Source of the DNA: Pelagomonas calceolata
Lineage: Eukaryota; Sar; Pelagophyceae; Pelagomonadales; Pelagomonadaceae
NCBI GenBank assembly: GCA_918797485.1
Contig: CAKKNE010000002.1
Span: forward strand, 6,042,501 to 6,106,500
Reading direction: 5' to 3'
DNA: 64,000 nucleotides
The position numbers were made by a program, and so were the translations under genes. This document shows positions 13,051-55,114 of this stretch, one piece after another. Positions within the stretch are counted from its first letter, which is position 1, and every line of letters begins with the position of its first letter. The notes beneath the pieces are model-generated. The model saw only the letters and a program-made list of their open reading frames with translations. It searched no databases and had not been told where the DNA came from.

Positions 13051-14581
13051 ATGTCGAGCTTCCCGTTCGGCAAAAAGAAAGCTTCTATCAATTGGGCGGA
13101 TGAGGACGACTCCAGCGACGACGAGAAGGGAGACGACTCGACCGGGCCGGACGAGCCCGACGTGCCCAGCTCGGACTCCGAGGACGAGGCCGACGCCGCC
13201 GCCGCCGCCGAGGAGTCGGAGGAGGAGCAGGACGCCTCCGACGACGACGAGGCCGAGAGCTCGGAGGAGGACGAGCCCGCGCCCGCCCCCGAGGTAGCGC
13301 CGACCGAGGAGAAGCCCAAGCCGCCGCCGCCGAAGCAGCTCACGAAGAAGGAGCGCAAGGCCCTCAAGGCGAAGGAGCTCGACGACCTCGACGCGCTGCT
13401 CGCCGCCGAGGGCCTCGCGCCGCAGGAGGCGCCCGCGCCCGCGCCCGCCGCGCCGCCCGCGCCGGCGCCGCCGGCCGCCGACGACGGCGACGCCAAGAAG
13501 AAGAAGAAAAAGAAGGGGCGCCGGCCGTCGGCCAAGGCGGACGAGCCCGCGGCGCCGCCGCCGCCCGCCGCGCCCGCCGCGCCGGCCGACGTCAAGGCGC
13601 TCCTCGCCAAAAAGGCCGCCGCCAGCAAAGGATCGAAGTCCGGTGCGCGCGCGGCGTCCCACGCAATTTCCTCAACTCCGTGGCGCAATGGATAGCGTAT
13701 CAGACTTCGAATCTGGGGGTTGCGGGTTCGAGTCCCGTCGGAGTTGTTGTTCGCTTGATGGACTGGAAATCTGAAGGTTATGAGTTCGAATCTCATATCG
13801 GTTTCACCGCGGTACTTGGACTCTTGCAAGATAGTGTGGCCGAGTGGTTAAGGCGGTAGACTTGAAATCTACTCCCGTAAGGGTCGCAGGATTGATTCTC
13901 ACCAATCAATGCGCTTTCGAACCCTGTCACTATCGCGCACGTTGATGATGTGGCCGAGTGGTCTATTAACCTGAGATGGTTAGACCCTAGGCGCTGGTTT
14001 TAGGCACCAGTCTTCGGGCGTGGGTTCGAACCCCACCATCATCACTTGAGTTCAATTCCGCACATTTGTATCCGTGGCCGAGTTGGTCTAAGGCGTTGGA
14101 TTTAAGCCCCAATCTCTTCGGAGGCGTGGGTTCGAACCCCACCGGATGCAATTTGGACCGATTGGCGCAACGGTAGCGCGTCAGATTCCAGTCCTGAAGG
14201 TTACGTGTTCGAATCACGTATCGGTCACACAAAAGTCGCGGGCGCCGCCGCACGGAGTTTCCCGAAACTCACGCGTCCCCCGAACGCAGGCGGCGGCTCG
14301 GCCATGTCGAAGGAGTCCGTCGCGGAGGCGAAGAAGCGCGCCGACGCGTTAGCCAAGAAGAAGAAGGCCGCTGAGGTACCGCGGCCGCGTCCTTAAATCA
14401 CGGCAAGGGGGTGTAGCTCAGTGGCAGAGCGTCCGCTTTGCATGCGGAAAGCCCAGGGTTCAAACCCCTGCTCCTCCAGCCTTACGTACGCCGTCGGTAC
14501 CGGGTTCCCCGAACTCACGCGTTTCCCCCTTCGCAGAAAAAGAAGAACAAGGCCAAGGGCAAGGGCCCGCAGCAGCGCTGA
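13051..14581 (+). CDS. Acidic/Lys-rich protein whose introns host six tRNA genes
   Basis: Exons 13051-13642, 14290-14375 and 14537-14581 join in frame to 240 residues. The protein begins MSSFPFGKKKASINWADED, continues as a long Asp/Glu/Ser acid tract, then has KQLTKKERKALKAKELDDLDALLAAEG, a Pro/Ala segment, and ends in Lys-rich helix (EAKKRADALAKKKKAAE, KKKNKAKGKGPQQR). I do not recognise a family; the layout recalls ribosome- or initiation-factor-associated acidic proteins. Intron 1 (13643-14289) contains five tRNA genes and one relic, intron 2 (14376-14536) one tRNA. Both introns have GT-AG ends, and their last 30 bases are alike (CTCACGCGT then a C run). The exon joins are supported by frame continuity and by the same Lys-rich composition on each side. 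Confidence 0.8.
13674..13746 (+). tRNA. tRNA-Arg(TCG)
   Basis: A 73-nt cloverleaf. The acceptor AACTCCG pairs fully with CGGAGTT, the anticodon loop is CTTCGAA (anticodon TCG, codon CGA), and the T arm has GGTTCGAGT. It has no intron. It lies in intron 1 of the acidic protein gene on the sense strand. No run of four T follows. Confidence 0.95.
13757..13804 (+). pseudogene. tRNA 3'-half relic
   Basis: It has a good T arm (ATGAG TTCGAAT CTCAT) followed by ATCGGTT, and an anticodon-stem 3' strand TCTGA. There is no 5' acceptor strand or D arm before or after it. The 3' part resembles the tRNA-Trp 0.4 kb away. Where Trp has TTCCAGTCC in its anticodon loop, the relic has the reverse complement GGACTGGAA. 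It is probably a pseudogene; a split tRNA half cannot be excluded from sequence alone. Confidence 0.6.
13830..13935 (+). tRNA. tRNA-Ser(TGA) with ectopic T-arm intron
   Basis: 106 nt. The acceptor GATAGTG pairs with CACTATC, the D arm is GGCCGAGTGGTTAAGGC, the anticodon loop is CTTGAAA (TGA, codon TCA), and a class II variable arm has stem CCC/GGG. The T arm is broken between GCAGG and TTCGAAC by 25 nt (13891-13915). Removing them gives a perfect T arm, GCAGG-TTCGAAC-CCTGT, and an 81-nt serine tRNA. The insert splits the Pol III B box. No T4 run follows. Confidence 0.93.
13891..13915 (+). other. tRNA-Ser intron with exact bulge-helix-bulge fold
   Basis: Central 4-bp helix CGCA (13885-13888) with TGCG (13910-13913). 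5' bulge GGA (13889-13891), cut after GG. 3' bulge CTT (13914-13916), cut after CT. Inner stem TTGATT/AATCAA, loop CTCACC. Both cuts fall after the second bulge base, as the tRNA splicing endonuclease requires, and yield the canonical T arm. Confidence 0.88.
13944..14044 (+). tRNA. tRNA-Leu(TAG) with ectopic D-loop intron
   Basis: 101 nt. The acceptor GATGATG pairs with CATCATC, the anticodon loop is TTTAGGC (TAG, codon CTA), the stem is CTGGT/ACCAG, and the T arm is GTGGG-TTCGAAC-CCCAC. The D arm is interrupted by 23 nt (13966-13988). Without them it reads GGCCGAGTGGTCTAAGGC, matching the neighbouring tRNA-Leu(TAA). The only TTTT in the whole tRNA cluster lies inside this gene, at the anticodon loop. 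Confidence 0.93.
13966..13988 (+). other. tRNA-Leu intron with exact bulge-helix-bulge fold
   Basis: Central 4-bp helix GGTC (13960-13963) with GACC (13983-13986). 5' bulge TAT (13964-13966), cut after TA. 3' bulge CTA (13987-13989), cut after CT. Inner stem TAACC/GGTTA, loop TGAGAT. The geometry is the same as in the serine tRNA, although the sequence and tRNA position differ. Confidence 0.88.
14068..14150 (+). tRNA. tRNA-Leu(TAA)
   Basis: 83 nt. The acceptor GTATCCG pairs with CGGATGC, the D arm is GGCCGAGTTGGTCTAAGGC, the anticodon loop is TTTAAGC (TAA, codon TTA), with an A-C mismatch closing the anticodon stem. Class II variable arm. No intron. The next tRNA starts only 5 nt later, so the two must share a transcript. 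Confidence 0.95.
14156..14227 (+). tRNA. tRNA-Trp(CCA)
   Basis: 72 nt. The acceptor GACCGAT pairs with ATCGGTC, the anticodon loop is TTCCAGT (CCA, codon TGG), again with an A-C mismatch at the base of the loop, and the T arm is ACGTG-TTCGAAT-CACGT. It is followed by CACACAAAAG with no T run. It is the last tRNA of intron 1. Confidence 0.95.
14407..14478 (+). tRNA. tRNA-Ala(TGC)
   Basis: 72 nt. D arm GCTCAGTGGCAGAGC, anticodon loop TTTGCAT (TGC, codon GCA), T arm CAGGG-TTCAAAC-CCCTG. The acceptor GGGGGTG/CTCCTCC has a T-T mismatch at the sixth pair and a G-T at the third. It lies alone in intron 2 of the acidic protein gene. No T4 run follows. Confidence 0.93.
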
Positions 14582-52909: not shown

Positions 52910-55114
52910 TTACGCAAGCGCCACACCACGTCGTCGCCACCACCGAAGCCGAAACCTCGGAACGGCCGCCCGCACCCCGACGATCGCCGCGGCCGCCGCC
53001 AGGACGACCGCGTCCGCGAGCGCGCGCGGCGACCGCACGAGGACGCGAAGGTGCCTGAACACGAGCAGCCGCGCGACGCGCCGCCGGCGCCAGGCGGGCG
53101 GCGGCGGCTCCGTCGCGACCGGCGCGGCCTCGAAGAAGGCCGCGTCGCCGCCCAAGAGGTCGCCGCCGGCGGGGAGCACCGGCGGCGGCTTCGGGGCGCG
53201 GCGGAAGGCGCCGCGGAGCGTCTCGCGTAATTCGGGCGTCAGCGGCTTGGTGGCCGCGGCGACGGCGGCGCGGCGCGCGGCCCGCAGCGCCGGCCGCGCG
53301 TCGACGTCGTAGGCGACGCGCCGCAGCGCCCGGCCGTCGGCGTCCTCGAGCAGGAGCGCCTTGACGACGGCCCCGACGTCCGGCGCGTCGCCGGCGTCGC
53401 CCGCCGACGACGCGAGCTTCTTCAGCCGGTCGACGTCGAGGCCGTTGTCGCTGGTTAGCAGCGCGGCCCGCAGGCGCGCCTCGCCCTGCGGCGTCCGCGG
53501 CGACAGCGCGCGCCGCGCGGCGTGCGGCGCCGCCGCCGCTAATGCCGAGAGGGGCGGGTCCATGCCGGCCGCGAAGCCGTCCAGCGTGATCACCGCGCGG
53601 ACGACGAAGAGCAGCCAGGGCGGCAGGATGAATTGATACGTGAGGGCGAGCTCCGTGAGGCGCGTCGTGATCTCCGTGAAGGAGCCCGCCGTGCCCTGGG
53701 ACGCCTTCTCGAGCGCGTCGACGAAGGACGCGGCGAAGTCCTCCTCCGAGCACGCCTGCCAGACGCCCGGCAAGAGACCAGAGGTCGGCGCGCCCGTCTT
53801 CGCGTCGACCCAGATGTTGGGTGACGGCGGCACGAGGCCGATCTCGCGGAAGGCCTCCAAGAGGTTCGGCCAGTCCTCGCTTACGATAGACGAGACGGCG
53901 TTCGCCATGGCCTCGCCCTGCGCCGGCGTCAGCCGCGTCACCAATCCAAAATCTAATAAAACTAAGCGGTCGTCGGGGTCGTAGAGCATGTTCCCGTAGT
54001 GCGGGTCGGCATGAACAAAATTCGTCCCGAAGAGCTGCAGGAAGCACACGTCCAGGCCCTTCTCGACCATGGCGCGCTGCCGTTCCGGGGTCAACGCCCC
54101 GAGCGGCTGGCCGTCGACCCACTCCGCGAGGTGGACGCGCGGCGTCACGGACCACTTCGCGGGCGCCACGTCGCGCGAGAAGCCCGCGCGCGGCACGCGG
54201 AGGTACGACGCCTTCGGGAAGTGCACGTCCCAGAACCGCGCCGCGTTCTCCGCCTCCTTGCGAAAGTCGAGCTCGCGGAACAACCCCGCCGTCACCTCGT
54301 CGACGATGGCCGGGTAGTCCGTCGTGCCGCCCCAGAAGTCCTGGAGCCACGCCAGCAGCAAGCGGACGGCGTAGCAGTCGAGCGCGACCTGGTCGACGAC
54401 GCCCGGCCGGCGCACCTTGACCGCGACGGTGGCGTTGTTCGCGGTCGTGGCCTTGTAGACCTGGGCGAGGGATGCGGCCGCGATGGGCGCGTCCGAGATC
54501 TCTTTCAGTTTCACGGGCGCGCCGGCCTGCGTCGCGGCGGGCGGTTACCAAGCGCGACTCCGTCTCTGAAGGACACGGGACACACGTACCAGGTCCTCCT
54601 CCACGGCTTTTTTGGCGATGGCATCCGCAAAGGGCCGGTTCGAGTCCTGGAGCGACTCGAGCGACGCCGCCGCCTCCTCCCCAATAATATCCGGCCGCGT
54701 CGCCAGCGTCTGCGCGAGCTTCACGAAGACGACGCCGAGCTTCGACACCTCGTCTCTCAAAGTCGCGCCCCGCGGCGACGCGCCGGGCCGCTGGCCGACG
54801 GCCCTCGCTTCCCGCGCCGCCTTCTGGTCGAAGTCGTCGGGGCTGCCGCGGCGCCAGGCGGCGTAGCTCCGCGCCACCGCCGCGGCGATGGCCGAGAGGC
54901 GCCTGGCTACCGCAAAAGGTCGCCGCTCGTAGTAGGCGGTAATGCCGGCGATCTTCTCGTCGAACGTCTTGCTGTCCGAGAGAATGAGCGGTTCGAGTTC
55001 GGGCGACTCGTACTGCTGCTCTGCAACTGCGGCGGCATGCAGTCGCGAGCTGTGACGTCGCGGCGGCGTTAGCGTATACCCACGGACAGCTGCAATGAGC
55101 AGCATACATCGCAT
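52910..55114 (-). CDS. ABC1K/UbiB-family atypical kinase
   Basis: Exons 55114-54590 and 54526-52910, phase 0 across a 63-bp GT-AG intron; 713 residues. N-terminal leader (MRCMLLIAAVRGYTL...) then a helical region. KLGVVFVKLAQTLATRPDII is the KxGQ motif, but with Ala in place of Gly (KLAQ). The join gives AGAPVKLKEISDAPIAAASL, leading to the family A-rich loop AAASLAQVYKA. VAVKVRRPG has the ATP-binding Lys, and FVHADPHYGNMLY and LVLLDFGLVTR the catalytic and metal sites. A C-terminal hydrophobic tail may anchor it. Plastid ABC1 kinases regulate prenyl-lipid metabolism in plastoglobules; this is the likely setting. Confidence 0.9.

Follow-up and report, generated by a model that had tools for sequence, protein, structure and literature searches.

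Till now, introns of tRNA genes that lie away from position 37/38 have been described chiefly in a single red alga, in the relict nuclei of algae and in certain archaea. The tRNA-Ile(UAU) gene of the red alga Cyanidioschyzon merolae is reported to contain introns in its D, anticodon and T arms (PMC9602550), and the same organism codes for homologues of Sen2, Sen34 and Sen54 with no apparent Sen15, according to PMC3978253. The nucleomorph of Guillardia theta also has tRNA introns in the D and T arms and several introns per gene, and the excision of some of them was confirmed by RT-PCR (PMC4090602, PMC3978253). In Thermoproteales archaea, introns bounded by a strict or relaxed bulge-helix-bulge (BHB) motif are reported from various tRNA regions (PMC8450103, PMC3978253).

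The locus that we describe here, from the stramenopile Pelagomonas calceolata, shares features with each of these systems. Like the nuclear tRNA genes of C. merolae, those of P. calceolata carry short predicted introns off position 37/38, including one in the T arm, with several per gene in a probable case and a permuted candidate alongside. Unlike in the red alga, the affected Ser(TGA), Leu(TAG) and Leu(TAA) genes of this stramenopile are multi-copy and apparently arrayed inside introns of protein-coding genes. D- and T-arm introns, and more than one per gene, are also what likens this genome to the G. theta nucleomorph; the introns of that relict nucleus are described as 3-24 nt long and many as devoid of a defined BHB, whereas P. 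calceolata shows a strict BHB on a nuclear contig. The likeness to the Thermoproteales lies in the BHB and its varied placement, and the difference in that their endonuclease and genomes are archaeal. A first-pass annotation had cited Thermoproteales and Cyanidioschyzon as the known cases of such introns; both are correct, and the list is incomplete in that nucleomorphs also have them (PMC4090602).

We analyzed a stretch of 64,000 nt (the window) that corresponds to positions 6042501-6106500 of the second contig in an assembly of 32,445,274 bases and 8 contigs. The published genome of P. calceolata RCC100 is reported to comprise a plastid genome of 90 kb, a mitochondrial genome of 39 kb and six nuclear contigs that total 32.4 Mb (PMC9481584). 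Further places in the assembly are designated below by locus numbers (L). The tRNA array of the window contains the following features.

13674..13746, + strand: intact tRNA-Arg(TCG), same array
13760..13804, + strand: tRNA 3'-half-like element (GGACTGGAAATCTGAAGG, T arm, acceptor-like 3' strand) with no adjoining 5' half
13830..13890, + strand: tRNA-Ser(TGA) exon 1 (acceptor 5' strand, D arm, anticodon arm, long variable arm, T-stem 5' strand)
13885..13916, + strand: strict BHB of tRNA-Ser(TGA), CGCA[GGA]TTGATT ctcacc AATCAA TGCG[CTT]
13891..13915, + strand: predicted ectopic intron of tRNA-Ser(TGA), 25 nt, at the boundary of T-stem 5' strand and T loop; B box broken; found in 6/6 copies
13916..13935, + strand: tRNA-Ser(TGA) exon 2 (T loop, T-stem 3' strand, acceptor 3' strand, discriminator G)
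13944..13965, + strand: tRNA-Leu(TAG) exon 1
13966..13988, + strand: second predicted ectopic intron, 23 nt, in the D loop of tRNA-Leu(TAG), GGTC[TAT]TAACC tgagat GGTTA GACC[CTA]
13989..14044, + strand: tRNA-Leu(TAG) exon 2
14068..14150, + strand: intact tRNA-Leu(TAA) of the same array, a paralogue without the D-loop intron of other copies
14156..14227, + strand: intact tRNA-Trp(CCA), same array
14407..14478, + strand: tRNA-Ala(TGC), 31 nt downstream of a donor-like GTACCGCGG at 14376

The first-pass annotation had read 13830-13935 as a tRNA-Ser(TGA) gene with a 25-nt insert that splits its T arm and forms a strict BHB, and the coordinates, shuffles and excisions described here agree with that reading. 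The 5' side of the motif consists of helix strand CGCA (13885-13888) and bulge GGA (13889-13891), the 3' side of helix strand TGCG (13910-13913) and bulge CTT (13914-13916), and the inner stem TTGATT/AATCAA (13892-13897/13904-13909) encloses the loop CTCACC. If each 3-nt bulge is cut behind its second base, 13891-13915 is removed and an 81-nt tRNA with full acceptor and T stems is left. The insert begins after 61 nt of the gene, outside the anticodon loop, and is therefore ectopic (non-37/38). When every stretch of 0-45 nt was removed from gene position 41 onward, the excision of gene positions 62-86 was the sole one that restored a 7/7 acceptor stem, a 5/5 T stem and a TTCRANY loop, and this excision is the cut pair named by the BHB rule; the earlier claim of a perfect T arm after cuts at the second bulge bases thus holds among all the excisions tested. 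When the mononucleotides of the insert were shuffled 200,000 times, an equally good in-register BHB never appeared. ARAGORN missed the uncut gene of the window and called a tRNA-Ser(TGA) once the insert was cut at the BHB sites. The CGCA/TGCG helix is present in the minimum free energy fold, which places the inner stem in a shifted register; in the centroid fold, the inner stem is in register with the BHB and the helix is missing. The sequence supports an ectopic BHB intron, and we consider it very probable that the insert is such an intron at a non-canonical T-arm position of a nuclear gene, one that an endonuclease would cut out and whose flanking exons RtcB would join.

A DNA search of the assembly (E up to 10) located Ser(TGA) at six places, all of them (6/6) interrupted at the same point by an insert of 25 to 29 nt. 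The exons of the six copies are identical except for one base of the variable arm, and the inserts vary. All six have a 4/4 helix and a 6-bp inner stem, with one G-U in two copies, and one inner-stem pair, the only one altered on both sides among the six, is T-A in the window copy and C-G in the other 5. No intact tRNA-Ser(TGA), a point raised in the first-pass annotation as one that would speak against the intron, was found: a stretch of 31 bases from the spliced 3' part occurs nowhere in the assembly within 3 mismatches, so that in this assembly a mature Ser(TGA) T arm would arise solely by splicing. One scan of viral contigs for relatives outside this genome gave no match. These observations bear on the possibility that the insert is a hairpin retained in a pseudogene or unexpressed tRNA, with UCA being read by another serine tRNA, for instance through inosine-34. 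The interrupted B box would suit a dead gene, and non-canonical insertions in eukaryotic tRNA genes are reported to occur mostly in one of many synonymous genes and to mark supposed pseudogenes (PMC4090602). Here, however, the insert occupies the same place in every copy found, exons remain near-identical as inserts drift with their pairing kept, no uninterrupted gene was found and removal of the insert yields a perfect T arm, which makes a pseudogene or unexpressed tRNA very improbable.

A second strict BHB lies in the D loop of the adjoining Leu(TAG) gene, a point beyond the first-pass annotation, as are the widespread disruption of tRNA genes and the arrays inside protein-gene introns described below. 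The D-loop BHB intron was found in 6/6 Leu(TAG) copies read (window 13944-14044, L024, L025, L026, L027 and L028). ARAGORN missed the uncut window gene, for which a second, weaker BHB register (13967-13987) was also returned. The inner stem of the Leu(TAG) BHB takes the form of three unrelated paired sequences among the copies, TAACC/GGTTA, ACCC/GGGT and GCTC/GAGC; changes on both sides with pairing kept affect three pairs in Leu(TAG) and one pair in Leu(TAA). Leu(TAA) carries a D-loop BHB intron in 4/10 copies and is intronless in 6 copies of the sequence read. Cut at one of their BHB registers, all four intron-bearing genes (4/4) give a product equal to an intronless paralogue; the genome itself displays the predicted spliced Leu(TAA) product in the form of that paralogue. 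In two of the four (L025 and L043), a rival BHB register is stronger, with an inner stem one pair longer and no G-U, and its product is two bases shorter than the paralogue. A similar rival register exists in Leu(CAA).

An unspliced Ser(TGA) RNA that is itself functional, with an extended T arm, would account for a score of 45.7 bits with the Rfam tRNA model against a gathering score of 29. Such an RNA would form 3/5 of the T-stem pairs in their normal place. Genes for Leu(TAG), Leu(TAA), Leu(AAG), Leu(CAA), Val and Tyr moreover have parallel inserts elsewhere in the tRNA that obey the same BHB rule, and Leu(TAA) exists in an intronless form as well; we regard a functional unspliced form as very improbable. 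An artefact of assembly or sequencing, to which work based on one assembly could be exposed, is extremely improbable given six separate places with differing inserts and a published assembly reported to have been polished with nanopore and Illumina reads (PMC9481584).

The case for spliced ectopic introns extends to other tRNA genes. In the window and loci L009-L102, a scan for the strict BHB gave 22,641 motifs, which were cut and run through ARAGORN. The 44 hits that spanned a junction were sorted by judgement into 22 real genes, 4 second registers and 18 spurious calls. The 22 genes represent 9 isoacceptors: Ser(TGA) with 6, Leu(TAG) with 6, Leu(TAA) with 4, and Leu(AAG), Leu(CAA), Val(TAC), Tyr(GTA), Lys(TTT) and Ala(CGC) with 1 each. 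The Tyr gene, in L066, was labelled Leu(TAG) by ARAGORN because its canonical intron is still present. The weakest of the 22 is the Lys gene of L011, called by ARAGORN without a 5' acceptor strand and with an acceptor stem that pairs poorly. The loci of this inventory were reached through T-arm patterns, 100 of the 233 matches of one pattern being listed, and it leaves out 15 nuclear places on contigs 4 and 5 together with 15 further T-arm-pattern places. With both cuts shifted by 1-9 nt, 11-22 of 25 in-register gene calls were still returned. Recovery by ARAGORN therefore reports tRNA-likeness, not cut precision, and its use as a test of the latter was dropped. Leu(AAG) of L037 and Ala(CGC) of L093 were omitted from the count with shifted cuts because their uncut forms are also called as tRNAs, truncated or odd-shaped.

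A relaxed search pointed to further structures. The best parse of Glu(CTC) in L067 has three introns, whose helices pair at 4, 3 and 3 of 4 positions, making this a probable three-intron gene. For Glu(TTC) in L071 the one-intron parse ranks second, and the top parse adds an excision that spoils the acceptor stem. The D-loop insert of Gln(TTG) in L083 has a full helix; a second insert in the same gene gave no convincing BHB and was rejected. A Pro(CGG) insert of L032, TGATT[CAT]..AATCA[CTG], was seen by eye and not returned by the relaxed search. At L032:1067-1960, three Pro(CGG) genes stand in tandem, with an insert that separates the D arm from the anticodon stem, and an intronless Pro(CGG) is present in L084.

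A scan for permuted genes gave 19 rows, of which one was taken as real and the others as tandem neighbours or chance. In L055 (minus strand, near 1008), the 3' half of an Ile(TAT) gene (ending CTGAAGG A) is followed by a TCT linker and then by the 5' half (CCTTCAG TAGCTCAG), an order like that of the permuted tRNA genes reported from C. merolae and prasinophytes (PMC4033280). The acceptor stem (7/7) and T arm were matched by script, the D arm and the anticodon-stem join by eye. This looks like a candidate for a circularly permuted gene with a 3-nt linker. Unlike its counterparts in C. merolae and prasinophytes, it has no clean BHB at the junction that could be drawn by eye. An ARAGORN call of Lys(CTT) in the window (54922-55013) has no Rfam match and was taken as a false positive. 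Suppressor-like genes with stop anticodons and a T discriminator were seen in L047, L082 and L094 (TTA) and in L081 (CTA), and a tRNA-Sec(TCA)-like gene in L108 adjoins a Trp gene.

Every one of the six Ser(TGA) genes is closely preceded by a 3'-half-like element (window 13760-13804, L025:5115, L026 (-) 3744, L027:5346 and 6455, and L028:4794). The T stems of these six elements are compensated between copies (GCGGG/CCCGC, ACGGG/CCCGT, CCGGG/CCCGG and ATGAG/CTCAT), and their leader is complementary to the anticodon region of Trp, as paired by eye. A search for a Trp 5' half returned 28 Trp genes matching at least 93% over the whole 72 bases, including window 14156-14227, one diverged copy (83%) and one copy matching 15-72 alone. 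A split, trans-spliced tRNA was set aside for the element, no lone Trp-type 5' half being found in the genome; the element may be one half of a split tRNA, a relic or else a spare B box. By eye, the anticodon stem of the Trp genes has an A31-C39 mismatch.

The arrays appear to be nested in protein-coding genes. In L004:1166-2953 (the same place as in L027), tRNA arrays occupy three introns of a cyclophilin gene on its sense strand, with two Ser(TGA) genes in the first and third introns on that same strand; the hand-joined exon translations match PF00160 at 3.2e-47. A host intron is suggested for the other four Ser(TGA) copies, and the tRNA-Ala(TGC) at 14407-14478 looks like it lies within a further host-gene intron. 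A T4 run within 40 nt downstream was found for 1/51 array-type genes (Trp 0/10, Arg(TCG) 1/13, Ala(TGC) 0/7, Ser(TGA) 0/6, Leu(TAG) 0/5, Leu(TAA) 0/10) and for 12/12 hand-chosen dispersed genes, ten of them disrupted. Some intact dispersed genes also have no T4 run. Of the 73 tRNAs called by ARAGORN in the window and the loci read, 71 are followed by enough sequence, and 10 of these have such a run. For 28/65 array-type genes a donor-like motif lies on their own strand no more than 1 kb upstream, and for 0/65 at the mirrored place. The missing T runs and the upstream donors fit transcription of array tRNAs together with a host pre-mRNA. We tentatively suggest, as a possibility that may well prove wrong, that the array tRNAs, including the six Ser(TGA), are not ordinary Pol III genes: they would ride in protein-gene introns, be made with the host pre-mRNA, be cut out by tRNA-end enzymes and then be spliced ectopically. 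If so, Ser(TGA) could have accepted an intron that breaks its B box because it no longer needed internal promoters.

Genes for a splicing endonuclease and for RtcB are present. Two catalytic-type endonuclease domains (PF01974, E 1.2e-18 and 3.1e-16) are encoded by open frames of 302 and 312 aa, and a Sen54-type N domain (PF12928, 2.1e-11) lies on another contig than these frames, the first of which has a weaker Sen54-type N domain. The genome encodes one RtcB of 481 aa (2.4e-163). A search with prokaryotic genomes as controls, and thus no eukaryotic positive control, found no match to Sen15 in the genome. The Sen15 family diverges fast, and for both reasons a missing Sen15 is weak evidence. 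The pair of PF01974 domains and the Sen54-type N domain, with Sen15 unmatched, resemble the set of C. merolae. In the path that we infer as the most probable, the precursor Ser(TGA) RNA would fold into the BHB, and both 3-nt bulges would be cut behind their second base by a TSEN-type splicing endonuclease acting away from 37/38; RtcB would then join the exons into the 81-nt tRNA, and modification of the T loop would follow splicing. The yeast endonuclease is reportedly confined to 37/38 (PMC4033280), which counts against ectopic cutting.

The first-pass annotation knew of no such intron in stramenopiles. In agreement with this, we found no report of ectopic, disrupted or permuted tRNA genes in a stramenopile nucleus in the open-access literature searched, subscription papers aside, nor any there of the nesting of such tRNA genes in introns. 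Term searches found no mention of tRNA in the main text of the P. calceolata genome paper (PMC9481584) or in an introner survey (PMC9860276). The kind of intron is known; its lineage, its presence in every copy found and its nesting in protein-gene introns appear to be new.

If the introns are indeed spliced, relaxed endonuclease specificity either evolved on more than one occasion or has a wider spread, and standard annotation of eukaryotic tRNAs misses such genes; in tRNAscan-SE 2.0, the search for non-canonical introns is described for the archaeal model (PMC8450103). What would carry this conclusion is the combination, in one stramenopile, of ectopic introns with a strict BHB, a gene that probably has three introns and a candidate for a permuted gene; this alga is culturable and abundant in the ocean, and the specificity of its endonuclease can be assayed directly.
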